Origin: Methylobacter sp.
GTDB lineage: Bacteria > Pseudomonadota > Gammaproteobacteria > Methylococcales > Methylomonadaceae
Length of the DNA: 64,000 nucleotides
Direction: 5' to 3'
Assembly: GCA_030653175.1 (NCBI GenBank)
Contig: JAURZV010000079.1
Location: 62,001-126,000 of the forward strand
The position numbers and the translations under genes were made by a program. Position 1 is the stretch's first letter. Every line of letters starts with the position of its first letter. The notes under the pieces were generated by a model, which worked only from the letters and a program-made list of their open reading frames with translations, did no database searches and had not been told where the DNA came from. This document shows positions 11,537-30,603 of the stretch, one piece after another.

Positions 11537-13231
11537 TTATGTAAGTTCGACGCCTGGGCGCATTGCGCCGCCCATAGCCGGAGTACCGGATCCCTGCGTA
11601 AATGACATCGCCAGATAAGCGGGCGGCTCTTCACCCAGCAATCTATACAAATTAGCCAAATTAAGCCGGAATTGTTTTTCAAAGTTACTGACCGCTTCCC
11701 CTGGATTATAATCGCCAAACCACCAAAACCAGTCAGAACCTTCACAGACGGCCAGCTGAAACTCAGCCTGTTGCACTTGTTTATCCGTTAATCTGCCCGC
11801 CGAAATCACCTTGTCAAATGTCCATTTGGCATCGCCCAGCATGTCCCAACCGCGATTCTTGTCCGCATCGCCTATCCAGGTCGAGAACGTACCGTAAACC
11901 CAACTGCCCGCAACCATTTTCGCCAGTGGTTTAATCTCAACCTTACTTTGCAAACATTCCGAAAAAGTAGTTAATTCAATATTTGGATGACCGGCCAGCC
12001 GTTGATACAAGGCATTGAGAAAGTAGTAGCCATTAGCAGGGAAATATTCCCATGCATTCTCCCCATCCATGATTATTGAAACCACTTTGTCACCGGACTC
12101 ATGTATAGCAATATTTTCGAGATGATGAATCAAATCGCCGACAGCATCATCGGCATGCCATTTTGAATATTCAAAACCGATAAGGTCGGATAGACCGTCA
12201 TCGCGAAAAAAACAGGCTATATCGGTTTTCTGAAGCTTAAAAGGATGATGAATTCCTGATTTTTTATCGTTTTCAGGAAGATTCAAACTATTATGCAGCA
12301 CAGAACCGCCACTTGCGGTCCAGTCAAAACCAAAATCACCCAATATTTTTAATGTCTGATCACTAACACCGCCTTCCGAAGGCCAGCATCCTTTAGGTTT
12401 AAAACCAAATAATCGCTTAAAGGTCTGCACACCCTTCTCAAGGTGCCACAAAACGCGCTCTTCTCCGCCCGGATAGGTATCCAGCTCCGGCAAAGGAGCA
12501 TCAGGCATAGCCTCATGGGTAGACTTCAAATCCAGCAAAAGCGGCATGATAGGATGGGCGTAAGGCGTCACAGAAAGCTCAACCTGCCCTTTTCTGGCTA
12601 ATGCCTTATATCGACAGATAATACTGCTCAGCTGCTCGGCAATAACCTCTATAATTTCAATCCTGTCGTGCAGCGTATAGCCGGAGCCTTTTTCTATCAG
12701 ACGTTTTATTCGGCTATCTGTTAACTTTATTGTTTCTCCCATCCAAATCAGATGATACCAAGCCAGAACATCACTGATAAATTGAGAATTGACATAAGTT
12801 AATGAATCATAATGGTGTTCAAGCCAATCGGCCATCTCAATCAATCTTTTGAAAGTCGGGTAACGGTTTATTTGTCTTTCCCTGTTCGCTCGCATACAGT
12901 CTTTGACTAATCTCATGCGTTCTTCAGGATCCGCCGGGATACTGGGATCAACCAGTGCCGCCAATAAAGGATCGGTGATCGAAATGCGATCATGCAAATA
13001 GCCGTTGACTTGCCTGGCATATTCCTCAATTTGTTCCAAAAGTATAGGCGCAAAATTCACTACCGCCTTGGCCTGCGGTACTGCTTCCAGATGCGCCACC
13101 ATATCTACATAGTCCTTAATAACATGCAGATACGTCCATGGCAGCTTAAATTCTCCTGATTGTAAATCTCTATATTCCGGCTGATGCATGTGCCAGCACA
13201 AGACTAACTTCAATTTTCTTTTATCTGACAT
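11537..13231 (-). CDS. GH57 alpha-amylase family glycoside hydrolase
   Basis: A 564-aa cytoplasmic retaining hydrolase of the GH57 (COG1449) type, acting on alpha-1,4-glucans. Motifs include the N-terminal [21 protein letters not shown] with the candidate nucleophile Glu, and [12 protein letters not shown] with the candidate acid/base Asp. No signal peptide, so its substrate is intracellular glycogen or maltodextrin. The start codon lies inside the 3' end of glgC (11-nt overlap), suggesting translational coupling. Amylase, alpha-glucanotransferase and related specificities cannot be separated from sequence alone. Confidence 0.88.
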
Positions 13232-14501
13232 AATGTCTTTTTTGCCCCAGCATATCCGGTGTAACCAAAACGACTCCGCCAGGACTTACATGAAATTTCT
13301 TTTCATCTTCCGCTCTATTTTCACCAATCACAGTGCCTTCCGGAATTTCACAGCCTTTTTCTATAATCGCCTTGGTAATACGACAATGGCGACCGATATT
13401 AACTTCCGGCAAAACGATAGTATCTTGTAAAGTCGTGTACGAATTAACGCGGACATTGGAGAATAATAAAGAATGCCTGACTTTTGCTCCGGAAATCACA
13501 CAGCCGCCTGAAACCATGGAGTCAACTGCCAGACCTCGTCTTTTGTCGCTATCAAAAACAAACTTGGCCGGAGGCGTTTGCGCCTGATAAGTCCATATAG
13601 GCCAGGTTTTATCGTATAAATTCAAATCCGGTTTTACGCCAATCAATTCCATATTGGCAGACCAGTACGCATCAATGGTACCTACATCGCGCCAGTAACT
13701 TTGTTCCCCGCTTTGTAAATCCAAAAAAGGATAAGCATTGACTATATATTTATCGATAACGGCGGGAATAATATCTTTGCCGAAATCACGGGTTGAGCCT
13801 TTGGTATCGGCATCTTTAAGCAATTGTTCAAACAGAAAACCGGCATTAAAAATATAAATACCCATGGACGCCAATGCAGTGTCGGTTCTGCCCGGCATAA
13901 GGGGGGGGTGCTCAGGCTTTTCCACAAAAGCCCTGACCCGCCGATTGTTGTCAACATCCATGACGCCAAAAGCCGTTGCATCCAGCAGCGAGACCTCTAT
14001 ACAGCCTATCGTTAAATCGGCATTTTTTTCAACATGATCGGCAAGCATGGCGCCGTAATCCATTTTATAAATATGATCGCCGGCCAGCACTAAAATATGT
14101 TCGGGATTGCGACTGCGCAAAATATCAATATTCTGGAAAATGGCGTCAGCGGTTCCTTCATACCAGGAATTCTCATCATGCCGTTGTTGCGCGGGCATCA
14201 AGTCGACATATTCACCAAATTCACCGCGCAAAAACCCCCAGCCCTGCTGAATATGCCTGATCAGTGAATCCGACTTGTATTGGGTCAATACGCCTATCTT
14301 GCGTATGCCGGAATTCATGCAGTTCGACAGCGGAAAATCAATGATCCGAAACTTGCCACCGAAGGGCACAGCCGGCTTGGCGCGCCAATCGGTCATATTC
14401 ATTAACCGTGAACCGCGACCGCCGGCCAATATTAACGCAATGGTATTGCGGGTTAAGTGACTGATATTATGATCATGCTTTTGCTTACTTGACGCTGACA
14501 T
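13221..14501 (-). CDS. glgC: Glucose-1-phosphate adenylyltransferase
   Basis: First committed step of glycogen synthesis: ATP + glucose-1-phosphate to ADP-glucose + PPi. 426 aa. The nucleotide-binding loop is [11 protein letters not shown], followed by [29 protein letters not shown] and FVEKPEHPP (sugar-phosphate site). The C-terminal left-handed beta-helix region includes [18 protein letters not shown] lies before the ATG at 14501. It is divergently transcribed from glgB across a 91-bp spacer and overlaps the downstream GH57 gene. Confidence 0.97.
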
Positions 14502-14592: not shown

Positions 14593-16767
14593 GTGAAAAA
14601 GCAATCTATAAACGTACTTGATTCTGATGCTATAAAAATCATGGAAGCCAGACATCATGATCCTTTTTCAGTTTTAGGTCGCCATCTCAAGAACAATCAC
14701 ATTCAGGTTAAGGTGTATCTGCCTTATGCAGAAACAGTGTGCTTTAGTCACAACGGCGCTGTTTTAAACCGGCTACCCGATACGGACTTTTTCGAATATA
14801 ACGCCGAACATGAACAATTGCCAGAACATTATCGATTGTCCTGGATCGATAAGGACGGTTACAGCCACGAAAACCATGACCCGTATGATTTTGGCACTCA
14901 ATTGCCGGAGTTCGACCAGCATTTATTCGGCGAAGGCAAACACTGGCACATTTACCAAAAACTGGGCGGACATCTGCACAACGCAGATGGTATTGACGGG
15001 GTTCTATTTACGGTCTGGGCGCCCAACGCCGGACGGGTCAGCGTGGTGGGCGATTTTAATCGTTGGGACGGACGCTGCAACCCAATGCGCAGCTTGGGCG
15101 GCAGCGGCATCTGGGAGCTGTTCATGCCGGATTTGCAAGTCGGTTGTTACTATAAATTCGAGATATTAAACCGCAATACCAACGAGGTTCTGTTAAAAAC
15201 CGACCCTTATGGTCAACAGTTTGAGTTTCGTCCCAATACCTCGTCCATCGTGATCCATGAAAACAGCTATGTTTGGGAAGATCGGCAATGGATGGACGAG
15301 CGTGTCCGCCACAATTGGCTGCATGAACCTATGTCCATCTACGAGGTTCATCTGGGTTCCTGGCGACGCGATCATCTGGGCAATTTCCTCAATTATCGTG
15401 AACTGGCCGTGCAGCTGGTCGACTATGTCAAGGAGATGGGCTTTACCCATATTGAATTATTGCCGGTGACCGAGCACCCGCTGGATGCCTCCTGGGGTTA
15501 TCAAACCACCGGTTATTTTGCCCCGACCAGTCGTCACGGCACACCGGATGATTTTCGCTATTTTGTCGACATCTGCCATCAAAACGGTATCGGCGTGATT
15601 CTGGACTGGGTGCCCGCGCATTTCCCCAAAGACAGCTTTGCGCTGGCCCGCTTTGACGGCAGCGCGCTTTACGAACACGAAGACCCGCGCAAGGGCGAAC
15701 ACCGCGATTGGGGCACATTAATCTATAACTTCGGCCGCAATGAAGTTAAAAACTTTTTGCTGTCCAGCGCCATTTTCTGGCTGGAGGAATTTCATCTTGA
15801 CGGCTTGCGGGTCGATGCCGTGGCCTCGATGCTGTACCTGGATTATTCCCGCGATGATAATGACTGGATTCCCAATATGTATGGGGGCAACGAAAACCTG
15901 GAAGCGATAGATTTTCTGAGAGAACTGAATACCGTCACCCATGACCAGCACCCCGGCACCGTGATGATGGCTGAAGAATCCACATCCTGGCCGCAGGTGA
16001 CCCGTCCGACCTGGACCGGCGGATTGGGTTTTTCGATGAAATGGAATATGGGCTGGATGCATGACACGCTGGCTTACATGAGCCAGGAGCCGATACACCG
16101 CAAATATCATCATGACCAACTCACTTTCGGTATGCTCTATGCCTTCACCGAAAACTTCTGCCTGCCTTTTTCCCACGATGAAGTGGTGCACGGCAAAGGC
16201 TCTCTGGTCAGCAAAATGCCGGGGGATGAATGGCAGCGTTTCGCCAATCTTCGGCTGCTGTACACCTTGATGTACACCTATCCCGGCAAAAAACTGCTGT
16301 TTATGGGCTGTGAATTCGGGCAAGGCACCGAATGGAATTTCAACAAAGAATTGGACTGGTATGTGCTGGACTACCCGCATCACAAGGGCGTGCAATCGTT
16401 GGTAAAAGACCTGAACCGGCTTTATAAAAAACACCCGGCCTTATACCAGCATGATTTCGATCATCAGGGTTTTGACTGGATCGATTGCCATGATGTGCAG
16501 CAATCCATCATCAGTTATCGGCGCAAGACCGAGCATGAAGACTTGATTGTCGTGCTCAACTTTACACCGGTAGCTCGTGAGCAATACCGAATCGGCGTGC
16601 CCATGGCAGGCACTTATACGGAAATATTCAATTCCGACTCCGGTTACTACGACGGCAGCAATGTCGGCAACGGTGCGGCATTGTCGGAACCGACAGCGTG
16701 GATGAATCAGCCTCACTCTATCAGCCTGACTTTACCGCCCCTGGGGGCCGTGATTTTGAAACTATAG
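14593..16767 (+). CDS. glgB: 1,4-alpha-glucan branching enzyme (GH13)
   Basis: Makes alpha-1,6 branches in glycogen. 724 aa, with an N-terminal N1 region ([11 protein letters not shown]), a CBM48 module ([18 protein letters not shown]) and the GH13 barrel: [20 protein letters not shown] (nucleophile Asp), [10 protein letters not shown] (acid/base Glu) and [12 protein letters not shown] (stabilising His-Asp). The C-terminal beta domain ends [12 protein letters not shown] second, unrelated GH57-type branching enzyme is encoded at 23904. Divergent from glgC, so both may share control elements in 14502-14592. Confidence 0.97.
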
Positions 16768-16815: not shown

Positions 16816-17022
16816 ATGTCAATCGCCGAACAAATTTATGAGGTCGCCAAACCGTTACCGGAATCTTTGGCGCTGGAAGCCCTGCATTTTATTGAATACC
16901 TGAGCTGTAAAAATGCAGATCGTGCAGAGATGTCCGACCTAACACGCGCACAAGAAATTGTAATGAAACACATTTGGGATAACCAGGATGATGAGGTTTG
17001 GAACGATGTTAAAAAGCTCTGA
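16816..17022 (+). CDS. Antitoxin-like protein (DUF2281 type) of a MazF-like pair
   Basis: A 68-aa acidic protein with AEQIYEVAKPLPESLALEALHFIEYL, a pattern common in small antitoxin-like DUF2281 proteins, then a polar tail. AAGGAG lies 7 nt before the ATG at 16816, which decides the start over an in-frame opening at 16798. It overlaps the MazF-like gene by 17 nt, as expected for a toxin-antitoxin pair. It presumably neutralises the toxin and binds their promoter. Because the toxin is frameshifted, the antitoxin may now be free of selection. Confidence 0.7.
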   Translation: MSIAEQIYEVAKPLPESLALEALHFIEYLSCKNADRAEMSDLTRAQEIVMKHIWDNQDDEVWNDVKKL

Positions 17023-17343
17023 CATCGTCCAAATTCCATTTCCATTTTCCGACCTGACTTACCAAAAGCGTCGCCCAGTGTTGTTACTGACTACCCCGGA
17101 TGCTTTTGGTGATTTCCTTGCTGCGGCTATTACCTCTCAGGCAGGCCACGATGATGCCGTTTTGCTACAAGACGATGACATTGTTGACGGCCGGTTGCCA
17201 AAAATAAGCTGGATACGTGCTACAAGGCTGTTTTCCCTGAACCGTGACACTGTCATCGTTACGCTGGGTGCCTCAAACCGGCAGCGTTCGAGCGTATCCA
17301 CAAGGAAATCTGTGTGAGACTTGGTTGTAAACCTTGCAAGTAA
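17006..17343 (+). pseudogene. MazF/PemK-like toxin with C-terminal frameshift
   Basis: The frame starting MLKSSDIVQIPFPF encodes the MazF/PemK core (PFPFSDLTYQKRRPVLLL, then DGRLPKISWIRATRLFSLN). MazF toxins are sequence-specific mRNA interferases. Around 17270 the expected reading is lost: the current frame ends at 17317 with an abnormal tail (SNRQRSSVSTRKSV). The +2 frame instead reads KPAAFERIHKEICVRLGC and stops at 17341-17343, the usual family C-terminus. A single-base deletion near CTGGGTGCCTC explains this (an extra T would restore LGCLKPAAF). The toxin is probably inactive or altered; a sequencing error is possible. Confidence 0.75.
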
Positions 17344-17432: not shown

Positions 17433-18866
17433 ATGAAAAAAATACTTTTTGTCACCAGTGAAGCCCATCCCCTGATTAAAACCGGAGGCTTGGCTGATGT
17501 TTCCGGCAGTTTGCCCAAGGCGTTATCGGAATTGGGTGAAGATGTGCGCATTATCATGCCCAATTATCAGGCTATCAAAACGACCGAAGAAGTTCGCTAC
17601 CTAAGCACAGTCTATGTAAATAATTACGCTGTGAATATCCTGGAAACCCGATTGCCGGGCACCGGCGTAATCGTGTTGCTGGTAGATTGCCCTGATTTTT
17701 TTAATTTTCCGGGCAATCCCTACGTTGATGAACACGGCAAGCCTTGGGCGAACAGCGCTGAACGTTTTGCCCTCTTTTGCCGCGTCACGGTAGAAGTTGC
17801 GATGAACCGGAGCTGGTTGGATTGGAAACCCGACATCGTTCACTGCAACGATTGGCAAAGCGGGCTGGTACCTGCGCTGCTGTCACTGGAATACAGCCGC
17901 CCGGCTATTGTTTTCACCATACATAACATGGCTTATCAGGGAGTATTCCCAAGCGCGACTTACCTTTCTTTAAACTTGCCCGGCCAACTTTGGAATCCGA
18001 ACGGCATAGAGTTTCATGACATGCTGTCATTCCTTAAAGGCGGCCTGATCTATTCCGATCGTATCACCACCGTAAGCCCGACCTATGCCAAGGAAATTCA
18101 AACCGCCGAGTTCGGCTATGGTCTGGAAGGTTTGTTAAGTCACCGAAAAGACTTCCTGAGCGGCATTATCAACGGCATCGATACCGACCACTGGAATCCG
18201 GAAACCGACACCAACATCAGCCAAACGTTTAATCGCTTTACGATACACAAAAAACTGCTTAATAAAGCAGCGCTACAGGAACAATTATCCCTGCCCGTTG
18301 ATAAAAACATTCCCGTGTTCGGGCTTATCAGTCGTTTGGTAGAACAAAAAGGCATTGATTTGATACTGGAATGTCTCCCCGAGATGCTGACCCACCCGCT
18401 GCAATTTGTACTGCTCGGCAGCGGTAACAAAGGTTTTGAACAGCGCTTGCACAATTTTGCCGAAAGCCACCCCGATAAAATATCGATCACCATTGGTTAT
18501 GACGAAACGCTGGCGCATCTGATTGAAGCGGGGGCAGATATTTTCCTGATGCCATCGCGCTTTGAACCCTGCGGTTTAAACCAGATATACAGTCAACGCT
18601 ACGGCACCATCCCCGTTGTCAGAAAAACCGGCGGACTGGCTGATACCGTCGTCGACACCGTCCCGGAAACACTGAACAATAATACTGCAACGGGACTTGT
18701 TTTCAATGAAGCGAGTCCCGGCGCGTTAATGGAAGCCATTAAACGCTCGCTTATCTTATACAGTCACCCTAAAACCTGGAAACAGCTACAAACCAACGGC
18801 ATGCAAAAAGACTACTCATGGAGCAAAAGCGCCAAACAATATATGACCTTGTACAGTCATCTGTAG
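17433..18866 (+). CDS. glgA: Glycogen synthase (ADP-glucose type)
   Basis: GT5 enzyme that elongates alpha-1,4-glucan from ADP-glucose. 477 aa, the usual bacterial length. The N-terminal KTGGLADVSGSLPKAL carries the ADP-glucose-binding Lys. HCNDWQSGLVPALL, TIHNMAYQG and NGIDTDHWNP follow. The C-terminal Rossmann domain has ISRLVEQKGIDL and the catalytic region SRFEPCGLNQIYSQRYGTIP with a KTGGLADTV loop. The gene lies after the toxin-antitoxin pair, about 90 nt downstream, and is followed by a palindromic repeat element and a hairpin terminator. Confidence 0.96.
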   Translation: MKKILFVTSEAHPLIKTGGLADVSGSLPKALSELGEDVRIIMPNYQAIKTTEEVRYLSTVYVNNYAVNILETRLPGTGVIVLLVDCPDFFNFPGNPYVDEHGKPWANSAERFALFCRVTVEVAMNRSWLDWKPDIVHCNDWQSGLVPALLSLEYSRPAIVFTIHNMAYQGVFPSATYLSLNLPGQLWNPNGIEFHDMLSFLKGGLIYSDRITTVSPTYAKEIQTAEFGYGLEGLLSHRKDFLSGIINGIDTDHWNPETDTNISQTFNRFTIHKKLLNKAALQEQLSLPVDKNIPVFGLISRLVEQKGIDLILECLPEMLTHPLQFVLLGSGNKGFEQRLHNFAESHPDKISITIGYDETLAHLIEAGADIFLMPSRFEPCGLNQIYSQRYGTIPVVRKTGGLADTVVDTVPETLNNNTATGLVFNEASPGALMEAIKRSLILYSHPKTWKQLQTNGMQKDYSWSKSAKQYMTLYSHL

Positions 18867-20139: not shown

Positions 20140-21732
20140 TCAATAATACACCCTGAACGATCGCTGTATTTGCTCAAACTCATACAGATAAGGCTTTGCC
20201 ACTTCGTAATTGGCGGCCACTACCAGTAGATCATGGGAAAAAACCGAGGTGTTGTACCAGTTGAAACTGCCTTCTATGACGATGTAGTCGTCGATAATGC
20301 AATATTTGGAATGAATCGGGGAATACGGCACCGGATGATCGTCCTGTCCGTAAACCAGGCCCACCCCAATACCGGCATGCTTTAACCGATCCACTGTCGG
20401 CAGCAACGGGCGGGCCAGTTCTTCCGCCATCGGTCGTTCTACCCCTATACGCCCCTGTCTGGCCAGATGTCCGTTAAGCAGGATATGGACATTGACGCCC
20501 CGGTTCTTGGCATTTATCAGCGCGTTGACCACGCTGTCATGATGATCCCCCAACAAATCGCCAATCAAAAATAATGACACTTTAATCGAATATCTGGCGC
20601 GGTTAATTTCGGCCAATATGGCATGATGGGGGCGGTAGGGCTTGCCGTTAAGCATGGTGTGCCGACCAAAGGTGTAGAGCAGGTTGAAATGGCTCAACGG
20701 GTCGATGCCGTATTTCTGGTTGACGCCGCCCCGCTGACTTTGAAAGATGTTATCCAGCAGTCGGCAAATGCCTTTGGAATGAAAGGTCATCCCCGATTCC
20801 CAATTAGCCCACCAGCGATCGAAGGTGATATTGAATGAACCCAGTATGCTGTCCTCATCATTAAAAATGATAAATTTGGTGTGCATATCCGGCTCCACTT
20901 CGATCAGATGATGCTTGGGACTGCAAAACACGCCGATCAATTCAATTCGGGAACGCTTTAACCGCGCATAGTTTTGGCTGTTGGTCAGGGTCATTTTTCG
21001 CCAATCCACGATGCACTGAACCAAAACCCCTTGATCGCCGGCGCTTAGCAAATGGGTAGTGAAATCATGGTCGTCAATGCAATCCACGCTGACTTTTATG
21101 GTACATAAGCGCTCAGGATTTTCGTGCTTGCAGCGGATAACCTTGTCGATAAGGTCGTGAATATAACGTTTGGGATGATAAGGATGGTACTGCTGTCCCT
21201 TGGTGAATTTGGGCACCAGCTGCAATGCTTCGAAATGATGGTTATACCAATCCACATCGCTCTGCAATTCACCGGCATTCAGCTCATAGGTCCGATAGTT
21301 GTTGGCCGTTGCCCAATCTCCGGTAATTTTTCGGTGCTGCGGCAGGTCTCCCTGAAGTTGATGCCAGTCCATAAAGATATATTCGTTCCGGGAGGCAATG
21401 GAGTGCTCATCCAGATGCACAATAAAAGCGAACTTGACGCAGTTGATCTGGCCGAAGTTGCTGGAAAACGGGTGTATGTAAAAATCCCGCGTACAGCGCT
21501 TGTGGCGATCCCACTGAATGTCATAGGCATCGGTATCGACAATATAGGTTTCGCAGACCGCGTCGCGGTAGACTTTTAGGATAACCTTTACATTAGCCTG
21601 AACGCCGAAAAACACATCAAAATCTATTTTTCCCCAGCGGATATAGAATTTGTCATTAAAGTCGTTCACTCTTTGAAAAGAGCCGCCCAGGTTTCCATGA
21701 GTCGGCGAGGCATAGTGTTCAGCTATCTGCAT
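20140..21732 (-). CDS. Phospholipase D-superfamily protein with two HKD motifs
   Basis: A 530-aa soluble protein without a signal peptide. The C-terminal two thirds hold two PLD motifs: HTKFIIFNDEDSILGSFN (about 284-300), in which the usual Asp after HxK is Asn, and a complete HSKYCIIDDYIVIEGSFN (about 470-490). The N-terminal about 180 residues (GGSFQRVNDFNDKFYIRWG, YIHPFSSNFGQ) are unassigned and may be a beta-sandwich. PLD-family members act on phosphodiesters in lipids or nucleic acids. GGAG precedes the ATG at 21732. It lies downstream of the EEP-CBM gene on the same strand and shares the glycogen-cluster setting. The substrate is unknown. Confidence 0.8.
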   Translation of the reverse strand: MQIAEHYASPTHGNLGGSFQRVNDFNDKFYIRWGKIDFDVFFGVQANVKVILKVYRDAVCETYIVDTDAYDIQWDRHKRCTRDFYIHPFSSNFGQINCVKFAFIVHLDEHSIASRNEYIFMDWHQLQGDLPQHRKITGDWATANNYRTYELNAGELQSDVDWYNHHFEALQLVPKFTKGQQYHPYHPKRYIHDLIDKVIRCKHENPERLCTIKVSVDCIDDHDFTTHLLSAGDQGVLVQCIVDWRKMTLTNSQNYARLKRSRIELIGVFCSPKHHLIEVEPDMHTKFIIFNDEDSILGSFNITFDRWWANWESGMTFHSKGICRLLDNIFQSQRGGVNQKYGIDPLSHFNLLYTFGRHTMLNGKPYRPHHAILAEINRARYSIKVSLFLIGDLLGDHHDSVVNALINAKNRGVNVHILLNGHLARQGRIGVERPMAEELARPLLPTVDRLKHAGIGVGLVYGQDDHPVPYSPIHSKYCIIDDYIVIEGSFNWYNTSVFSHDLLVVAANYEVAKPYLYEFEQIQRSFRVYY

Positions 21733-22131
21733 AAGTTTATCTCCATGATAAAGGTGAAGCCTTGTACCTTACAATTTTGTCTCGTTCCCACGCGCTACGC
21801 TCGTCGTTATACGCAAGTATTTCCAAGCACGTCATTCCGGATTGCCGGAATCCAGAGCACAGGGATGTGAAACTTCGCGTTGCTCAAGTATCTGTAGAGC
21901 CGCCAAGTTACCGTCCATGCAGGTATGACGACTCTTGGGCAGCGTTGTGTATACAGATGAGCGCTACGTGGGAACGCATTAGTGGGCGCGCTGCGTCCTG
22001 AGTTTGAAAGGTATTATATACAATCGCTGTTCGCGGCGTAGCGCGCCTTGAACAGCGATTGCAGGAGTGCAGGCTTCGCCTGCTGTGCAAGCAAAGCTTG
22101 CACTCCTGCCTTTCGCCTTGCATCTTTCACC
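21733..22131. repeat. Composite repeat region between the PLD and EEP genes
   Basis: No gene. It contains CTCGTTCCCACGCGCT near 21780, CATTCCGGATTGCCGGAATCC near 21830-21850, CAATCGCTGTTCGCGGCG...AACAGCGATTG arms near 22021-22062, and GCAGGCTTCGCCTGC followed by GCAAGCAAAGCTTGC near 22069-22100. Each of these families has other copies in the window (8562, 26420-26505, 52806-52855). The length and hairpins may uncouple transcription of the two flanking genes. Confidence 0.65.
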
Positions 22132-23640
22132 TTAAACCTTTGGCTCAAAAGTCATAAAATAACCGCAATGATCGGAAACCCTTCCATAATCCCGCTCGGT
22201 AAACAAAACCGTCGCTGACGTGACCTGCAGCTCGCTGGTTTTATTCAAGAAAATATAATCGATACGATAATCATCGCTCAGATAATCTTGCCAGTAAGGA
22301 TCGTTAACTCTGAAGATTTTTTCAAACACGCCCTGCGAATTAGCCGCTAAATACTGGTCGTCATATTGGTGTCCATTGACCACCAGATGATACCCCATTG
22401 ATCCGGCGGCAATATTAAAATCGCCGCACAACAGGGTGGCGTTGACATGCGACGACTGTTTAGCTTCGGCCCACTCGCACAATCGTTGGAATTGCCCAGC
22501 GAATCCGTCTTCCCACCAGCTTAAATGTGCCGAAAAAACATTAACCCGCCCCATATAAGGCACTTTGATTTGAGCCATGACCACTTTTCGGGAGTGAATA
22601 CTGTGGACATCATTGCTGGCCGACACATACTTGGCGTCCTGTTTAATCAGCGGATATTTGCTTAAAATGGCCACGCCTTCGCGATACTTGTCAAAACCCA
22701 GATGCGACCAGTCGGTGTGGATATGATAGGGCGTAGCGAGGCGATCATTAATTATTTTGGCGGAATTGGACTCCCAGTCCCCTGCCCCGTCATTCCAAAG
22801 TTCTGCCACTTCCTGAAGACAAACAACGTCAACATTCAGTTCGTTAATCGCCTTGGCTATTTGGGAGAACTTATAATCCTGCTCATCTTCCTGATAACAA
22901 TGCAGATTAAGAATCAAAACTTTTAGCGGCTCGCGGCTAAGCGAGTAATTTTTGCCGTAGTTATTGTCCCAAAAAATCTGACCGTTGCGTTCGACGGAGA
23001 TGCTGTATTGCAAGCGGAACGCCTGACCGATCCTAAGCCAGCCTTTCCAGATTGCAACGCCGTACTGATTGGGGTTTCTGGCATTGCTGAGCGCCACTTT
23101 GTCCCAGTAGTTTCTTTTGAAATGGCAAGAGGTTTTATGAGTATGCCGCCAGTTATCCGTCGTCCAGTGTACCGTCACCTTGTCGGCATCGTTAAACTTG
23201 TCCACTGCTACCGTGATCGGAACGTTTTTTTGTCCGTCATCCAGCTTGTTTGCAAAGTCGATGTTCAAAACAGGGACATCGCAAGCCAACTTGATGCCTG
23301 AATCGGCCTGACTGGAATAATTTAAGCCCTGATTGTTATCCCAGTACTCGGCAGTAGAAGTCTGGCAGCACAATCCGAACCGGATATTGCCGGGTAACGA
23401 TTTATCCGGGGTGAGCTGAAAATGTATCCGGGCCTGCCAGTACTCCTTATCGTGTTCCAACTTGCTGTGATAGCTTGCAGGCAGGGTTTTCCATACGCCG
23501 TCTTCACCCGACCAAACCACATCAATCCGTTTGTCGTAACTGACGCTTTCCACCTGCATAAAAAAACTCAGCGTTTGCTGAGCGCCCGCTTTTTTTCGGG
23601 TAATCACATTTTCAACATACAGCAGTTGGATTTTGTTCAT
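22132..23640 (-). CDS. EEP-family phosphoesterase with two N-terminal CBM21-like modules
   Basis: A 502-aa protein without a signal peptide. Two similar beta-sandwich repeats come first (about 15-120 and 125-230), each ending in the starch/glycogen-binding signature EYWDNNQGLNYS or FWDNNYGKNYS, as in CBM21-type modules. The C-terminal 265 residues are an endonuclease/exonuclease/phosphatase domain with VCLQEV (metal Glu), FSAHLSWW (His), LCGDFNIAAG, YRIDYIFL and VSDHCGYF, so the catalytic set is complete. The EEP fold covers nucleases, sphingomyelinases and sugar- or inositol-phosphate phosphatases. The CBMs suggest it is tethered to glycogen and may remove phosphoesters there. GGAGA precedes the ATG at 23640. 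Confidence 0.8.
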   Translation of the reverse strand: MNKIQLLYVENVITRKKAGAQQTLSFFMQVESVSYDKRIDVVWSGEDGVWKTLPASYHSKLEHDKEYWQARIHFQLTPDKSLPGNIRFGLCCQTSTAEYWDNNQGLNYSSQADSGIKLACDVPVLNIDFANKLDDGQKNVPITVAVDKFNDADKVTVHWTTDNWRHTHKTSCHFKRNYWDKVALSNARNPNQYGVAIWKGWLRIGQAFRLQYSISVERNGQIFWDNNYGKNYSLSREPLKVLILNLHCYQEDEQDYKFSQIAKAINELNVDVVCLQEVAELWNDGAGDWESNSAKIINDRLATPYHIHTDWSHLGFDKYREGVAILSKYPLIKQDAKYVSASNDVHSIHSRKVVMAQIKVPYMGRVNVFSAHLSWWEDGFAGQFQRLCEWAEAKQSSHVNATLLCGDFNIAAGSMGYHLVVNGHQYDDQYLAANSQGVFEKIFRVNDPYWQDYLSDDYRIDYIFLNKTSELQVTSATVLFTERDYGRVSDHCGYFMTFEPKV

Positions 23641-23903: not shown

Positions 23904-25532
23904 CTACCCAAGATTATAATCCCGAAAATCAATGTCCGGGAAAATGTTATCCATGATTTCCAAAGCGGTCAGGTAACGCTCATTGATCCTGTTCTTGCGA
24001 ATACTATCGTGTAAATAGTTAAATCGGGCCAGATGATCGGTAATGCGCTTGTTCGCATAATCGACAGTTGTCCCCGATTTCAGGATAAACGGCCAATCGG
24101 AGGCTTGTGCAAGCAAAACCGATCTGGCAGCCTGATTCAAAGCTCGCGTCTGTAACGGAGTAAGCGTTAATCCCCGAACATCCCGCGCCAGTTTCTCCAT
24201 CTCCTGCTCGGCCTTGTGGAGCAGTGGGTAAATCCAGTCATTTGATTCATTTATCCAGTAACCGGAATAACCTTGATCGCCCCAGGTTGATGCGGCGGGC
24301 GTAGCGATCTGAGCCGGCGGCTGCTGTTTTAAATAATCGCCGCAACTGATCAGCTGAACGTCATTGGCGTTTTCGCTTGCCAGCCTCAGTACACATTCCA
24401 GCCAGTGAGTTCCTTCAAACCACCAATGACCGAACAATTCGGCATCGTAAGGCGCTACGATGATCGGCGGTCTGTCCATGGTAGCGCTAAGCCGGTCAAT
24501 TTGATGCTGCCGTTTATCGATAAAATCCTGGGCATGTTCATACGCTTTTGCCAATGCTTTCCTCGGATTATAAATGTCCTTGGGCAGATTCTCGCCGGTC
24601 ACGCGATGATACTTTATCCCGGTATTGATACGGGTTTTCCCGTCGAGAATATAGGGGGCGATATAATCCGGGTCCAGCTCAAAACCGATGTCGCTATAGT
24701 ATTCGCGGTAGTCGAAATCCCCCGGATAGCCTTCCTTTGCGCTCCAGACCTGCTGTGACGACTCGGGATCGCGCGCAAACGCTGCGACACCGTTGCCGCA
24801 AGCGATCGGCGCATAAACGCCATGACGAGGCTGCTGACTTGCGTCCGTAACGCCGTGGGTATCGACAAAAAAATACTCAATCCCGGCATCGGCCAACACT
24901 GTCTCCAGACCGGGATAATAGCCGCATTCAGGCAGCCAAAAACCGGTCGGAGCAGGGCCGAAGTTGGCTTTAAACGCTGCGATACCCGTATTGACCTGAT
25001 TGCGGACTGCGGTTTCGCTGACATTGAGCAACGGCAAAAAACCGTGGGTCGCGGCAGTCGTTATCAATTCAAGTTTGCCGGTGGCCTGGTGCTTTTTAAA
25101 AGCTCCCAATAAATCGCCTTGGTAACGTTCTTGATAAATGTTTAACGCGTTCAGGAAAAAACGGCGATAGAGTCGCGCTAATTTTTGATACTGGGGCTGC
25201 TTGCGGGTTCTGATGATTTCCTTTTCAGCCAATTCCAGCCGACTATGCAGATGTTTCAGATAACGCGTTTGTAGCAAGTCGTCGCGCAACATTGCCATCA
25301 GCGTCGGCGACAATGACAGCGTTAGCCGGTAGTCCACGTTATCGGAGTGTAACCTGTCAAGTACGCCGATCAGCGGCAGATAACATTCGGTCATGGCTTC
25401 AAACAGCCAATTCTCTTCAAAAAAACTGTCATATTCAGGGTGCCGCACATAGGGAAGATGTGCGTGGAGAATAATACTCAGGAATCCTTGCCGGCAGGAA
25501 GCGTGATCAGAACGAGGTAAGCTTTTTGTCAT
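23904..25532 (-). CDS. GH57 1,4-alpha-glucan branching enzyme (DUF1957 type)
   Basis: About 542 aa. The N-terminal GH57 motif is ILHAHLPYVRHPEYDSF, then TTAATHGFLPLL, GFWLPECGYYPG (candidate nucleophile Glu) and VAPYDAELFGHWWFEG (candidate acid/base Asp). The DUF1957-like helical C-terminus ends near NIFPDIDF. This is the pattern of the Thermococcus-type branching enzymes, non-homologous to GlgB. The frame is open to 25580, but the ATG at 25532 lies 5 nt beyond the DUF4912 stop and is the probable start. It forms an operon with the DUF4912 gene, a common pairing. Confidence 0.88.
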   Translation of the reverse strand: MTKSLPRSDHASCRQGFLSIILHAHLPYVRHPEYDSFFEENWLFEAMTECYLPLIGVLDRLHSDNVDYRLTLSLSPTLMAMLRDDLLQTRYLKHLHSRLELAEKEIIRTRKQPQYQKLARLYRRFFLNALNIYQERYQGDLLGAFKKHQATGKLELITTAATHGFLPLLNVSETAVRNQVNTGIAAFKANFGPAPTGFWLPECGYYPGLETVLADAGIEYFFVDTHGVTDASQQPRHGVYAPIACGNGVAAFARDPESSQQVWSAKEGYPGDFDYREYYSDIGFELDPDYIAPYILDGKTRINTGIKYHRVTGENLPKDIYNPRKALAKAYEHAQDFIDKRQHQIDRLSATMDRPPIIVAPYDAELFGHWWFEGTHWLECVLRLASENANDVQLISCGDYLKQQPPAQIATPAASTWGDQGYSGYWINESNDWIYPLLHKAEQEMEKLARDVRGLTLTPLQTRALNQAARSVLLAQASDWPFILKSGTTVDYANKRITDHLARFNYLHDSIRKNRINERYLTALEIMDNIFPDIDFRDYNLG

Positions 25533-25537
25533 CACGC

Positions 25538-26155
25538 TTATTTGCTGATTCCTTGACCTGAGGCGTTTTTGCTCAGGCAATAGGTGGAGTTCTCATGGTC
25601 TTGACGCCACGCCGTCCCTCCATGAGGGGCGTGAATAATGTTCGAGTGCGCAAAAGCGATAAAACTATCATCTGCACAACATTTGCCAATGGCGGCTGAA
25701 TAAGCCGTTTCATTAACCGGGCTGGGCAAGGACACTTGTTGTTGGGTCTTGGGGCTATCAATGGCAACGTCGAACCATGATGCTGTTTCGATAGCCTCTC
25801 TCTCTTCGTCGGGTTGCGAATAAATCCTTAAAGTGAGTTGATCCTTGCGTTCGTTATCAGACGTAGAGATTTCCCGGTTTTCTCCAAGATTCCAATAGGC
25901 GTAAAGGTGTCCGGGATCAACGGGCAAAAGAACCACTTCGGGGATATTGTAAGACGCTTTGGGTGCAAAATCCCGGCCGATTTCCTCGCCTATATCCAAC
26001 AATTCCTTTGGCGAAAGCCTGATTTTTTCAACAAGCTCCGGCATCCAACTTGAAAAACATGGCGTAAAATTTCGACTGATTTCCTGACTTATTTCAAGCA
26101 TTTCTTTCGCCGATAGATTGATTTTGGAATTGTATCCTGAATGCAAAAACGTCAT
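25538..26155 (-). CDS. DUF4912 domain protein
   Basis: About 205 aa. Two similar N-terminal helical repeats (LSAKEMLEISQEISRNFTP and LSPKELLDIGEEIGRDFAP) precede the DUF4912 core, VVLLPVDPGHLYAYWNLGE, and further beta-strand segments ending in AHSNIIHAPHGG. DUF4912 proteins are often encoded beside GH57/DUF1957 branching enzymes; their role is unknown, though an accessory carbohydrate-binding or regulatory function is plausible. The ATG at 26155 is preferred over the GTG immediately before it. Confidence 0.8.
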   Translation of the reverse strand: MTFLHSGYNSKINLSAKEMLEISQEISRNFTPCFSSWMPELVEKIRLSPKELLDIGEEIGRDFAPKASYNIPEVVLLPVDPGHLYAYWNLGENREISTSDNERKDQLTLRIYSQPDEEREAIETASWFDVAIDSPKTQQQVSLPSPVNETAYSAAIGKCCADDSFIAFAHSNIIHAPHGGTAWRQDHENSTYCLSKNASGQGISK

Positions 26156-26158
26156 CAC

Positions 26159-26663
26159 CAGCCTTAAACGTTACGATTACCTTATCTAAAATTCTTCCCT
26201 ACACCTAACTCCACTTTTTTCTTGGGTTATACCTTGAAAAGCAAGCCCATCCAAGTATACGTAGTAAATTCCGCAGGGTCTAGTACTGTATGCCAGCAAT
26301 TCTCATTATGACAATATCAATAAAATCAAAATGATAAAATACATACAGCGTTTTCAAATTCAGTTAATTACTAAAATAACCACTATGCCTATTGAAACTA
26401 TGGTGTGACGGGAGTGCAAGCTTTGCCTACATGGATGTGGGTAAGGGGCGAGAGCAGGAGCGGAAGCTTTGCTTGCCAGTGCAGGCGAAGCCTGCACTCC
26501 AGCGACAATGTTGTTTTATTGCTTTAATGGTGACATAGTCTTTTAATAGTTACTAATCAAAATTGAAACCGCTGTAGTTTTGAGATTCCGTCTTTTTTTT
26601 CCGCGGGCATCGCCGATGGAACTGAAAAAACAAGATTGGAACAAGTTTATGACTGGCTTTTAA
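26159..26663. other. Intergenic region between DUF4912 and the BREX relic
   Basis: No intact gene. AT-rich at 26160-26400, where DUF4912 promoter elements would lie. At 26410-26505 it carries a copy of the GGAGTGCAAGCTTTGC / GCAGGCGAAGCCTGCACTCC repeat family. The 26570-26660 part may be further decayed BREX sequence, but I cannot assign it. Confidence 0.5.
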
Positions 26664-27185: not shown

Positions 27186-27419
27186 ATGGCTACCGTGAAT
27201 TTTAGCGTACCAGACGATGTTAAAGATGCCTTTAATGCTGCTTACCAAGGACAAAATAAGAGTGCAGTCATTACCGAACTGATGCGTGAGGCAGTTGAGC
27301 GTGCGCAGCGTAAACAACGCAGTCATGATGCGATTGCGAGAATAGTGGAACGCCGGAAACACGCTCCGGCAATCAGCGATGAAGAACTTCATGCAGCGCG
27401 GGAAGAAGGCCGCCCATGA
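27186..27419 (+). CDS. Ribbon-helix-helix VapB-like antitoxin
   Basis: A 77-aa protein. The N-terminal ATVNFSVPDDVKDAFNAAY with a following amphipathic helix is a ribbon-helix-helix DNA-binding pattern, and the charged C-terminus (ISDEELHAAREEGRP) would wrap the toxin. The ATG at 27186 follows AGGAG about 6 nt upstream. It overlaps the PIN toxin gene by 4 nt (ATGA). The pair lies between the brxC and pglX relics and, unlike them, is intact. Confidence 0.85.
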   Translation: MATVNFSVPDDVKDAFNAAYQGQNKSAVITELMREAVERAQRKQRSHDAIARIVERRKHAPAISDEELHAAREEGRP

Positions 27420-27844
27420 TTTTGGTGGTCGACGCCGGTGTCGCACTCAAATGGTTCTTCCAGAGCAGGGACAATGAACCGGACTGCGACCTGGCATTAG
27501 CCATTCTGTCCGGTGTCGATGATGAGCGCATCCGACTGCTGCAACCGCCGCATTTTATTGCGGAAGTGACTGCGGTACTTGCCCGTGAAAAGCCAGAGGA
27601 AGCACAGAATGACTTGCTTGATTTATTAAGCATCGAAAGCCGTTGCTCCGATGGGCCTGAGATTTATACCTTAGCCATGGATCTTGCCATTCGTTGTCAG
27701 CATCATTTGTTCGACACCTTATATCATGCAGTGGCCTTGAACACCCATGGCGCTAAACTGGTTACCGCTGACCGCCGTTATTACGATAAAGCTTTTGGTT
27801 TTGGCCAGATTGTTTTGTTGACCGACCTCAAGCTCGCGCTTTGA
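27416..27844 (+). CDS. PIN-domain toxin (VapC-like ribonuclease)
   Basis: A 142-aa PIN domain. Acidic active-site residues are visible in VVDAGVALKW (Asp6), PHFIAEVTAVL (Glu), HLFDTLYHAVAL (Asp) and LVTADRRYY (Asp), so the metal-binding quartet is intact. VapC toxins cleave tRNA or rRNA when freed from their antitoxin. Start ATG overlaps the antitoxin stop. It probably persists by addiction while the flanking BREX genes decay. Confidence 0.88.
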   Translation: MILVVDAGVALKWFFQSRDNEPDCDLALAILSGVDDERIRLLQPPHFIAEVTAVLAREKPEEAQNDLLDLLSIESRCSDGPEIYTLAMDLAIRCQHHLFDTLYHAVALNTHGAKLVTADRRYYDKAFGFGQIVLLTDLKLAL

Positions 27845-27868: not shown

Positions 27869-28560
27869 ATGAACAAAAACAAAAACAAACTCAAAGCCCC
27901 GCAAGCACGTAAAGATTTTATCGCCGCTGTTACCGCTCGGGATCATCGTCTCGGACTGGCGGAAAATAACGATTCTGTAGAGATTGCTCCAGCCAAAAAA
28001 GTGGCGATTTAGTCATTATTGCCGGGAAATCCTGGCCCGCCAAGATTAGCAGCCAAAGGGACAACCGCTCGTATTGAGCAGGATGGTTTGGTTGGCTTAC
28101 ACCTGGTTTAACCGCTTTGCCGCGTTGCGTTACATGGAAATTCACGATTACCTTAACCACGGTTATCGGGTGTTTTCCAGTCGGGAAGGCGGCTTGCCTG
28201 AAATACTAAACGCTGAGCCGGAACCGGCACAAAACCGCGAATTCCCCCGACCTTAATTCACAACAGGTTATAGAGAACTCAAATTGGCCGGTGATCAAGA
28301 GGGCGAACTGTATCGCTTAACACTGATTGCCCAATGTAACGCGCTGTCCAATGTCATGCCTTTTCTGTTTGAGCACATCGATAATGAAACCGAACTGCTA
28401 CTGCCCGACAATTTATTACTGACCGATTCCGTCATAGCCAAGCTGGTGACCAGCCATACCCGAAGAAGACTGGAACCAGGTGGAAATTATCGGCTGCTGC
28501 ATCAGTTTTTATTCAACAATGTCCATTCTCAAAGACCACTACAGTTCGGGTATTTACCGG
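27869..28560 (+). pseudogene. pglX: Frameshifted 5' relic of pglX (BREX-1 adenine methyltransferase)
   Basis: Starts with ATG at 27869 (KAPQARKDFIAAVTARDHRLG, stop at 28010-28012) and continues in other frames: GDLVIIAGKSWPAKI, ARIEQDG, VWLAYTWFNRFAALRYMEIH, HGYRVFSSREGGLPEIL, ELKLAGDQEGELYRLTLIAQ, NALSNVMPFLFEHIDNETEL, LLLPDNLL and PEEDWNQVEIIG. These are successive blocks of the PglX N-terminus, separated by at least four frameshifts (near 28003, 28085, 28250 and 28465). The rest of the gene, including the methyltransferase motifs, is absent: the relic runs into the 3' end of convergent glgX. Clearly non-functional. Confidence 0.85.
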
Positions 28561-30603
28561 GTAAAAATTTTCGCTCACAGGTTTTTGATCTTGCGGAAAC
28601 ACAATATCCCTCGGTGATTTCAGCGACGTGTCCAAAGCCAGACACCATGAACGACCGATAATAACAGGTAGTTCAATGCTGACTTGTTGATCTGACATAT
28701 TCATCACAACATGCAGATCAGGTTCGTTACTTTCAACGCCTGCCAGGGTAAAAGCTAAAACCTTCGCGTCATGATCATCCCATAACGGCTTGTTGATTTC
28801 AGTGCCGTGCCATTGAATCTCGGCTATCCCCCTCCCATTGACGGATTTTCCGGTCAAGAAACGCCGCCGCATGATGGATGGGTGTCTTTTACGCAACGCT
28901 ATCATAAGCTGGACAAAACGCAGCATATCGGCATTTTGATCAGTCATATTCCAATCTATCCAGGACAATTCGTTATCCTGGCAGTAGCAGTTATTATTGC
29001 CGTGCTGGCTGTTTAATAACTCGTCGCCCGCCAATAACATGGGGACGCCATGACTGAGCAGCAACATCGCGAAAACATTTTTCACCTGTTTTCTGCGCAA
29101 CGCCAAAATGCTTGAATCTTCAGTTTCTCCCTCAATGCCGCAATTGAAACTTAAATTATTATTGCAGCCATCCTGATTATATTCACCGTTAGCATAATTA
29201 TGTTTTTCGTTGTAACTGAACAAATCGTACAGGGTAAAGCCGTCGTGACAGGTTACGAAGTTGATGCTGTTAATAGGCAGTCGGCCTTTGTCTTCATACA
29301 GATCGTTACTGCCGCAAAGGCGGGTTGCAAGCTCGTTGACCAGCCCCTTATCGCCGCGCACAAAACGCCGGATAACATCCCGGTATCTGCCGTTCCATTC
29401 GGCCCAGCGATAACCGGGAAAACTGCCGACCTGATACAGTCCTGCCGCGTCCCAAGCCTCGGCAATCAACTTGGTTTTGGCCAGCTGCTCGGAAAGCTCG
29501 ATACCCCAGAGCAAAGGCGGATCTTGCAGCACTTCGCCACCCTCCCCTCGCGCCAACGCGCTGGCCAGATCAAAGCGAAAACCATCGACATGCATTTCCC
29601 TGACCCAGTATTCCAGACAGCTGATAATGAAGTTGGCCACCAAGGGGTGATTGGCGTTTACCGTATTGCCGCAGCCGGTGTAGTCGTGAAGGATGCTCTT
29701 GTCGAACTTGTCATGATGATAAAAAATATCATCCCCTATGCCCCTGAAATTAATGATCGGGCCATCTGCGCCCGCCTCTGCGGTATGGTTGAACACAACG
29801 TCCATAATGACGCCCATGCCTGCCTGATGCAGCGCTTTAACCAGATCGCGAAACTCATTTACATGCGTTCCCTGCTCCGGGGTGACGCAATACCCCGGAT
29901 GCGGACTGAAAAAACTGTGGGTACTGTAACCCCAGTAGTTTTTCAGCCCCAAATCGGCAGTGTGCCCGGGAACATCCTGCTCATCGAAAGCCATTACCGG
30001 CAATAGTTCAACGTGAGTAATACCGAGTGCTTGCAGGTAAGGAATTTTTTCAATCAGTCCGGCAAAAGTACCCGGATTGGTCACTTTTGAAGAGGGATGT
30101 CGCGTAAAACCGCCTACATGCAGTTCGTAAACAATAGCTCTTTCGCTACGAATGCGTAGCGGCACATCGCCTTCCCAATCATAACGGTCGTCAACGACAA
30201 CGCAACGCATGGCGGTAAGCTTATTGTCGCCCGGCATACACGCCGCCTTGCGACTCCAACGTTTATGACTGACCGCACGCACCCAAGGATCAATCAGTTG
30301 CTTGTTCTTATCAAAATGCAATCCCGCTTCACGGACATGATTAGGCCCGTCCATGCGCCACGCATACCATGTGCCGACCGGCAATCCGGTCACATAAACG
30401 TGCCATGAAAAAAAAGTGCGGTTAACTTCTTCCTGTAACACTATGGTTTGAAAGGGTTCATCGCCGTCTGACGTATCAAAAAGCAAAAGTTCAACATGCG
30501 TCGCATAACGACTGAAAATGGAAAAATTAACACCCTTGCTTTTAGCCCTGGAGCCGGAAGGATAAGGATTTCCCGGCTTTAACTGGTATTCTTTTTTGTG
30601 CAT
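28513..30603 (-). CDS. glgX: Glycogen debranching enzyme (isoamylase type)
   Basis: Cleaves alpha-1,6 branches of glycogen or limit dextrin. 696 aa. An N-terminal CBM48-like module (NPYPSGSRAKSKGVNFSIFS, then WYAWRMDGP) precedes a GH13 barrel: VIMDVVFNHTAE, DGFRFDLASALARG (nucleophile Asp), LIAEAWDAAG (acid/base Glu) and FVTCHDGFTLYDL (His-Asp). TreX/GlgX proteins share this layout. GAGGAT precedes the ATG at 30603. The 3' end at 28513 runs into the pglX relic; the C-terminal end VFENGHC is compatible with the family, so the gene seems complete. Confidence 0.95.
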   Translation of the reverse strand: MHKKEYQLKPGNPYPSGSRAKSKGVNFSIFSRYATHVELLLFDTSDGDEPFQTIVLQEEVNRTFFSWHVYVTGLPVGTWYAWRMDGPNHVREAGLHFDKNKQLIDPWVRAVSHKRWSRKAACMPGDNKLTAMRCVVVDDRYDWEGDVPLRIRSERAIVYELHVGGFTRHPSSKVTNPGTFAGLIEKIPYLQALGITHVELLPVMAFDEQDVPGHTADLGLKNYWGYSTHSFFSPHPGYCVTPEQGTHVNEFRDLVKALHQAGMGVIMDVVFNHTAEAGADGPIINFRGIGDDIFYHHDKFDKSILHDYTGCGNTVNANHPLVANFIISCLEYWVREMHVDGFRFDLASALARGEGGEVLQDPPLLWGIELSEQLAKTKLIAEAWDAAGLYQVGSFPGYRWAEWNGRYRDVIRRFVRGDKGLVNELATRLCGSNDLYEDKGRLPINSINFVTCHDGFTLYDLFSYNEKHNYANGEYNQDGCNNNLSFNCGIEGETEDSSILALRRKQVKNVFAMLLLSHGVPMLLAGDELLNSQHGNNNCYCQDNELSWIDWNMTDQNADMLRFVQLMIALRKRHPSIMRRRFLTGKSVNGRGIAEIQWHGTEINKPLWDDHDAKVLAFTLAGVESNEPDLHVVMNMSDQQVSIELPVIIGRSWCLALDTSLKSPRDIVFPQDQKPVSENFYPVNTRTVVVFENGHC

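Follow-up and report, generated by a model that had tools for sequence, protein, structure and literature searches.

Laforin, in which a glucan-binding module is joined to a phosphatase, is described in the accessible part of PMC12834914 as the only known glycogen phosphatase, and whether organisms lacking laforin, among them bacteria, have phosphate on their glycogen is treated as speculative in the accessible part of PMC13011383. In bacteria, mapP, located downstream of malT, encodes MapP, a protein of the endonuclease/exonuclease/phosphatase (EEP) family (PMC3737437, accessible part). Carbohydrate-binding modules (CBM) of family 21 are known from the PPP1R3 glycogen-targeting subunits and from Rhizopus glucoamylase. 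Here, we analyzed a stretch of 64,000 nucleotides from Methylobacter sp. (assembly GCA_030653175.1, contig JAURZV010000079.1, positions 62,001 to 126,000; hereafter the window), and in particular the gene located at 22132-23640. This gene was confirmed to encode two CBM21 modules followed by an EEP domain with intact catalytic residues (CBM21-EEP). Judging from sequence comparisons and structural models, its product is, on balance, probably a cytosolic glycogen-bound phosphatase that works together with a neighboring protein of the phospholipase D (PLD) superfamily as a two-enzyme unit. The two genes and the domains of the first are as follows:

22132..23640, minus strand: CBM21-CBM21-EEP protein, 502 aa, ATG start, the subject of this study (open reading frame (ORF) list and Pfam)
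23314..23619, minus strand: CBM21 module 1, approximately residues 8-109 (CBM_21, 37.6 bits)
22939..23229, minus strand: CBM21 module 2, approximately residues 138-234 (CBM_21, 41.4 bits)
22144..22926, minus strand: EEP catalytic domain, residues 239-499, MapP clade (Pfam, tree and fold match)
20140..21732, minus strand: PLD-superfamily protein, 530 aa, with an N-terminal domain and two PLD halves, next gene downstream of CBM21-EEP

The initial annotation, made from the sequence alone, had proposed two N-terminal CBM21-like modules, a catalytically complete EEP domain and the absence of a signal peptide, and all three proposals were borne out. When the whole protein was compared with Pfam, CBM_21 scored 68.1 bits in two stretches and Exo_endo_phos 71.4 bits, and each module scored as a separate region exceeded the CBM_21 (PF03370) cut-off of 28.9 bits. 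With a profile built from 53 homologues, module 1 matched the CBM21 of Rhizopus glucoamylase (2djm, E 4e-7), module 2 matched those of PPP1R3B (E 3e-8) and PPP1R3C (E 1.5e-7), and the EEP domain matched 3teb (E 2.6e-31; 4e-23 in a sequence search); the two modules also aligned to each other (hhalign, E 3.4e-7). An AlphaFold2 model computed from the alignment of 53 sequences was confident (mean predicted local distance difference test score (pLDDT) 88.8, predicted template modeling score (pTM) 0.85), with all-beta N-terminal modules, as expected if the repeats adopt a CBM-like fold, and an alpha/beta C-terminal half. The top Foldseek match was again 3teb (E 8e-20, TM 0.81 over the target), an EEP protein of Leptotrichia buccalis that is the best solved match by both sequence and fold; it consists of the EEP domain only and is absent from the tree described below. 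As the top 50 rows shown by Foldseek were all EEP structures, the CBM21 assignment depends on the sequence profiles. Another EEP fold match of the model was 4c1r, by its title a Bacteroides mannosyl-6-phosphatase, for which a literature search turned up nothing; polysaccharide 6-phosphatase activity may thus have a precedent in the EEP fold. By reading of the sequence, no hydrophobic signal peptide was evident at the N-terminus.

The EEP positions N245, H247, E277, H313, R351, H372, D407, N409, D461, D490 and H491, which are active-site positions of the family, were invariant in 53/53 homologues, and the catalytic set of the superfamily (PF03372; N, E, D-x-N, D, D-H) was intact as N245, E277, D407, N409, D461, D490 and H491. 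The residues of sugar sites I and II of the CBM21 protein PTG were taken from the accessible part of PMC9582199 and mapped by hand, by eye on motifs for module 1 and from the HMMER alignment for module 2. On this mapping, both sites are largely retained in module 1 (K37 in 53/53, W50 in 52/53, W100 in 50/53, N102 in 51/53 and N107 in 53/53), and module 2 retains four of the seven site I residues (W164 in 53/53, W224 in 50/53, N226 in 46/53 and N231 in 49/53); R187, Y196 and C235 of PTG are replaced in module 2, and its site II is not conserved. Two homologues (L027 and L049) showed a divergent stretch at approximately residues 172-198 of module 2, possibly a local frame change, in which the frame stays open.

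The proposed role resembles that of laforin as a works-like analogy, a glucan-binding module being joined to a phosphatase in both (accessible parts of PMC12834914 and PMC13011383). Laforin, however, combines CBM20 with a Cys-dependent dual-specificity phosphatase, whereas the present protein combines CBM21 with a metal-dependent EEP domain. As the laforin type is defined by a dual-specificity phosphatase with a Cx5R motif (accessible part of PMC12834914) and the catalytic domain found here is an EEP, CBM21-EEP would be laforin-like in its proposed role only and is not a member of that family. The CBM family is shared with the PPP1R3 subunits and Rhizopus glucoamylase, but unlike in PPP1R3, CBM21 is here in cis with the phosphatase, duplicated and bacterial, and protein phosphatase 1 (PP1) dephosphorylates proteins. 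No description of a CBM21-EEP-type protein was found among the papers listed in searches of the open-licence literature, subscription papers lying outside these searches, and the accessible part of PMC11046441, which reviews the alpha-glucan enzymes of prokaryotes, does not mention MapP, laforin or a dikinase. The architecture was thus not found described and is built from known superfamilies, and the function predicted for it is so far known from laforin.

Counting that of the window, 29 of 61 related genomes had full-length CBM21-EEP, with 58-95% identity, and three further genomes matched in the EEP region only. In an even sample of the class (369 genomes), the window's own genome gave the sole full-length match and 27 others matched in the EEP region only; in an even sample of the phylum (398 genomes), CBM21 was present in one, again the window's own. 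A scan of the genome_contigs collection confirmed 267 relatives, and all counts of loci refer to the best 80 among them. By record title, these 80 were mostly Methylobacter, Methylovulum, Methylomonas, Methyloglobulus and other Methylococcales. All of them aligned from residue 1 to at least residue 498, with the exception of one (L179) ended at residue 471 by the end of its contig, and CBM_21 and Exo_endo_phos both matched in 53/53 homologues scanned (E 0.001). The fusion is therefore more than a chance finding. The non-methanotroph records among the best 80 of 267, two from Accumulibacter and one from Rhodoferax (L204, L211 and L212), may be mis-binned; they form a supported group inside a poorly resolved part of the methanotroph tree, and transfer of the pair of genes to these organisms is possible, as is mis-binning.

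No close relative was found in the viral_contigs collection with the single protein as a query, and among 62 plasmid records matching the full-length query, none had one place covering 80% of it; these two results rule against phage or plasmid cargo. Searches of plasmids and phage records with the EEP domain only are uninformative on fusions. Five phage-labelled records (OR846874, OR848227, OR846610, PQ520241 and MT836669) contain mapP-like EEP stretches, possibly host DNA.

The kind of EEP domain was addressed with a tree of 48 sequences; eight of 29 more class-level or own-genome EEP stretches were omitted because of their length or lack of a single frame. One clade (support 98/90) grouped 11 CBM21-EEPs, five standalone methanotroph EEPs, one additional relative (L112) and seven MapP or phosphotransferase system (PTS)-linked EEPs, as opposed to 24 other sequences. 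Within this clade, CBM21-EEPs join the standalone methanotroph EEPs first (93/82), not MapP. MapPs and their PTS-linked kin stand on a branch of their own, and CBM21-EEP is thus clade kin of MapP and not its orthologue. Among the residues shared by at least 90% of CBM21-EEPs and at least 80% of MapPs, and present in fewer than 30% of the remaining EEPs, are L244, E251, K257, N292, G315, Y319, E321, S370, W375, F380, G416, Y417, D428, W450, F480 and G493. Seven of them (E251, K257, Y319, E321, W375, Y417 and W450) were invariant in 53/53 CBM21-EEPs, and the standalone methanotroph EEPs lack, or almost lack, E251, K257, Y319, S370 and G416. A second EEP of this clade, one that lacks a CBM, is found in several related methanotroph genomes (L114-L118), with 34-39% identity and no constant neighbor.

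Among annotated plasmid proteins, the closest relatives were small EEPs from lactic acid bacteria and other organisms, including an E. faecalis protein annotated as maltose 6'-phosphate phosphatase (29.0% identity), whose operon also encodes a protein of glycoside hydrolase (GH) family 65, beta-phosphoglucomutase (pgmB), an aldose epimerase and a PTS IIBC protein. Nine plasmid regions were fetched, and the six with an EEP of the clade (from E. faecalis, E. faecium, Lactococcus, Leclercia, Cetobacterium and Priestia) have it adjoining a PTS IIBC gene. A gammaproteobacterial EEP relative has a GH77/phosphorylase pair on one side and a PTS EIICB gene on the other. CBM21-EEP therefore resembles MapP, the maltose 6'-phosphate phosphatase of Enterococcus faecalis, in its clade, its invariant catalytic set, the clade residues and an alpha-glucoside context. 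MapP differs in having no carbohydrate-binding modules and a PTS-derived disaccharide substrate, with 29% identity, and no PLD gene was among the features listed for the six PTS-linked plasmid regions, for which the gene table is incomplete. The placement and the shared residues suggest that the protein may act as a glycogen-tethered sugar phosphatase. An exonuclease III or general nuclease was discarded as a candidate, matches to the NCBIfam families exoDNase III, MnuA and ExeM being far below their cut-offs and the tree placing the domain elsewhere.

Membership of the MapP clade also suits a soluble activity, in which the EEP domain would act on phosphates of malto-oligosaccharides or small sugars released by turnover and CBM21 would merely park the protein at the granule, the substrate of MapP itself being a disaccharide phosphate (accessible part of PMC3737437). 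We regard this explanation as rather unlikely. The presence of at least one CBM_21 match in each of 53/53 homologues suggests polymer-directed action, and no PTS family was found among the proteins scanned near the gene (nine in the window and ten at each of two sets of displaced loci), the other neighbors being unscanned for one. Likewise, the neighbors typical of MapP (maltose PTS, maltose phosphorylase or glucosidase) were not seen among the nine window proteins, which comprised glycogen, PLD, deacetylase and DUF4912 proteins.

The glycogen-bound phosphatase reading is further supported by the surroundings of the gene, which, as proposed in the initial annotation, lies in a glycogen cluster:

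23904..25580, minus strand: GH57 protein with a branching-enzyme C-terminal domain, directly upstream of CBM21-EEP (Pfam)
25538..26158, minus strand: DUF4912 protein, overlapping the GH57 gene at its called start (ORF list, Pfam)
28513..30603, minus strand: GlgX-type debranching enzyme (ORF list, Pfam)
17433..18866, plus strand: glycogen synthase GlgA (Pfam, glgA scan)
14593..16767, plus strand: GlgB branching enzyme, GH13 (Pfam)
13221..14501, minus strand: ADP-glucose pyrophosphorylase GlgC (Pfam)
11537..13231, minus strand: GH57 family protein (Pfam)

Homologues were likewise found mostly with glycogen genes, which were present within the fetched stretch at 59 of the 80 loci. Of the 80 loci and the window taken together (81 rows), 35 have the pair of CBM21-EEP and PLD genes downstream of the GH57 branching enzyme, 20 have it downstream of GlgA and five show other glycogen arrangements; 14 rows had no glycogen genes and seven could not be placed. 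On a quick, partly resolved tree, in which 37 of 78 inner branches are weakly supported, these arrangements require a minimum of 13 changes among four states; when only the well-supported branches are counted, the number is lower, with at least two changes for the GlgA arrangement and at least five for the GH57 one. The link of the pair to glycogen genes thus holds in more than one arrangement.

The gene also tracks with the GH57 branching enzyme, a link that the initial annotation had overlooked. This enzyme was present in 28 of 29 genomes with CBM21-EEP versus 6 of 32 without it, and, in the window's family only, in 28 of 29 versus one of eight, three of these eight being less than 90% complete; all are raw counts uncorrected for kinship. 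A link through the presence of glgA was rejected, since glgA exceeded its cut-off in 48 of 61 relatives and discriminates little: it was found in 27 of 29 genomes with CBM21-EEP, the two misses being 72% and 70% complete, and in 21 of 32 genomes without it.

The protein encoded next downstream, near-constant as a companion, had also been passed over in the initial annotation. PLDc_2 and PLDc exceed their Pfam cut-offs in the window protein. Its second PLD motif is canonical (H474/K476/D481, invariant in 40/40), and the first, H284/K286 with N291 at the Asp position, is equally invariant (40/40). The model, computed from an alignment of 40 sequences, was moderate (pLDDT 73.3), with low confidence around the first HKD motif. 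None of the libraries searched names this PLD family specifically. Its N-terminal domain (approximately residues 1-150) is all-beta; it was considered as an additional CBM and dropped, as hhalign gave no match to either CBM21 module and no PDB sequence match was obtained up to E 10.

In 20 neighborhoods that we picked among the 29 genomes carrying full-length CBM21-EEP, PLD followed EEP on the same strand in 20/20, and PLD was better conserved than CBM21-EEP (76-98% versus 58-95% identity). In 69 of the 80 loci, the PLD gene immediately follows that of CBM21-EEP on the same strand. Seven of the other 11 reach a contig edge at most 347 bases downstream, two of these seven showing the first 66 residues of PLD, and four (L164, L167, L181 and L200) have no local PLD and carry one elsewhere in the genome (three full length, one a 111-residue piece). 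Among the 61 relatives, full-length PLD was found in 28 and CBM21-EEP in 29, and all 28 coincide; one genome (G002) has the EEP gene close to a contig end and no PLD match, another (G014) has a PLD fragment without the EEP, and a third (G035) has a 26-bit partial match only. This near-strict co-occurrence implies a common substrate or process. The neighbors listed or scanned for displaced copies included no further constant partner. REP-like palindromic repeats occur at 22061-22109, where 399 nt separate the EEP and PLD genes, and at approximately 26411-26500, upstream of the DUF4912 gene; their arms are of 20-23 nt and 87-100% complementary.

As nucleases occur in both superfamilies, the two proteins might be a glycogen-docked nuclease pair acting in repair, RNA turnover or defence, and PLD indeed has sub-cut-off matches to NucT and DISARM DrmC and weak PADLOC matches to DrmC. 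We nevertheless consider this improbable: the EEP domain groups apart from the other EEPs sampled, including YbhP, and keeps MapP-type residues, and the pair is linked to glycogen genes and the branching enzyme. The EEP has no PADLOC family match and the DrmC matches of PLD are weak, and a defence system was therefore rejected.

EEP and PLD genes are also neighbors outside the clade. In E. coli, ybhP adjoins clsB, which encodes a PLD cardiolipin synthase (L129, 3974-5973), and on a Rhizobium plasmid an EEP gene lies near a PLD gene on the same strand with one gene between (L132, 2415-5720); the pairing of EEP and PLD thus recurs. By analogy, PLD could make or cleave a phospholipid from which EEP removes phosphate, with glycogen as a platform, and phospholipases and phosphatidylserine synthase are among the PLD fold matches. 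Such a lipid-phosphate pair seems still less probable than a nuclease pair, as YbhP, which has no CBM and a lipid context, is outside the MapP/CBM21-EEP clade, no lipid rationale is evident for CBM21 targeting and the glycogen context, and no membrane segment is evident by reading. The initial annotation had named a nuclease or lipid phosphoesterase docked on granules as its second possibility, and both versions are weakened.

Least probable of all, in our view, is that PLD is a polyphosphate kinase (PPK)-like phosphotransferase adding to glycogen the phosphate that EEP removes: PP_kinase_C matched 39/40 PLD members (best 1.8e-6; window protein 20.6 bits, below the 25.8 cut-off), PPK1 chains are among the fold hits, the Asn replacing Asp in the first HKD motif is invariant, no plant-type dikinase was found in the genome, and two homologues are in records of Accumulibacter, which cycles polyphosphate and glycogen, but PPK and PLD share a fold, so that the match may be superfamily background, and the model is of low confidence around that first motif.

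For the glycogen-bound phosphatase, the following course can be proposed. The two CBM21 modules would dock the protein on glycogen chains, as their family, fold and conserved sugar-site residues suggest, and the metal-dependent EEP domain would hydrolyze phosphate esters carried by the polymer's glucosyl units, C6 being the most likely position. The downstream PLD would act with it as a two-enzyme unit; in what is the weakest step, PLD might open phosphodiesters or otherwise expose a monoester, which EEP would then remove. The likely benefit would be a glycogen still workable for branching and debranching enzymes, because glucan phosphate reduces the affinity of branching enzymes in proportion, a bacterial enzyme included (accessible part of PMC13011383). 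More tentatively, we propose a bacterial processing of glycogen phosphate that arose independently of laforin, in which the CBM21-tethered MapP-type phosphatase and the PLD diesterase would both be needed to clear phosphodiesters and phosphomonoesters.

Several observations weigh against this interpretation. The tree outgroups were mostly drawn from profile-matching sequences, several of them on long branches, and MapP and its PTS-linked kin share just 28-31% identity with CBM21-EEP. The sister group of five standalone methanotroph EEPs has neither a known substrate nor a constant neighbor, L112 (44% identity, inside the clade) adjoins a GMC oxidoreductase gene and not a sugar PTS, and the three plasmid relatives outside the 24-row clade (E. 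coli YbhP, Peptoclostridium and Rhizobium) lack a PTS context. Position 32 of module 1 is N in 49/53 homologues and S in the window protein, and site I of module 2 is conserved only in part. At 21 of the 80 loci no glycogen gene was seen; for 14 of these the upstream DNA sufficed for a judgement, and the neighbors scanned at such loci appear unrelated. Moreover, since glgA is found in relatives without the gene, CBM21-EEP is not needed by every glycogen maker. Finally, no plant-type glucan dikinase was found in the genome, the only PPDK_N protein having an open frame of 811 aa, the length of phosphoenolpyruvate synthase, and a dikinase partner was rejected on this ground. In mammals, glycogen-synthase error has been proposed as the phosphate source. 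The laforin-like phosphatase of the initial annotation is thus partly supported: it gains from the CBM21 modules, the glycogen loci and the MapP clade and residues, and is weakened by nearest sister EEPs without a known substrate and by having left out the PLD companion.

Should this be confirmed, bacteria would have their own counterpart of the human Lafora-disease protein, and with it a second way, reached by convergence, of solving what goes wrong in that disease; covalent phosphate on bacterial glycogen would be a real, managed feature, and the PLD family would gain a role. A conserved gene in cultivable methanotrophs such as Methylobacter makes bacterial glycogen phosphorylation directly testable.

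A promoter and terminator scan was uninformative (7 versus 9.2 expected and 9 versus 7.6 expected). Within the glycogen cluster, the small ORFs at 16988-17317 and 27416-27844, both on the plus strand, read by eye from their translations like a PemK/MazF-type and a PIN-type domain, respectively.

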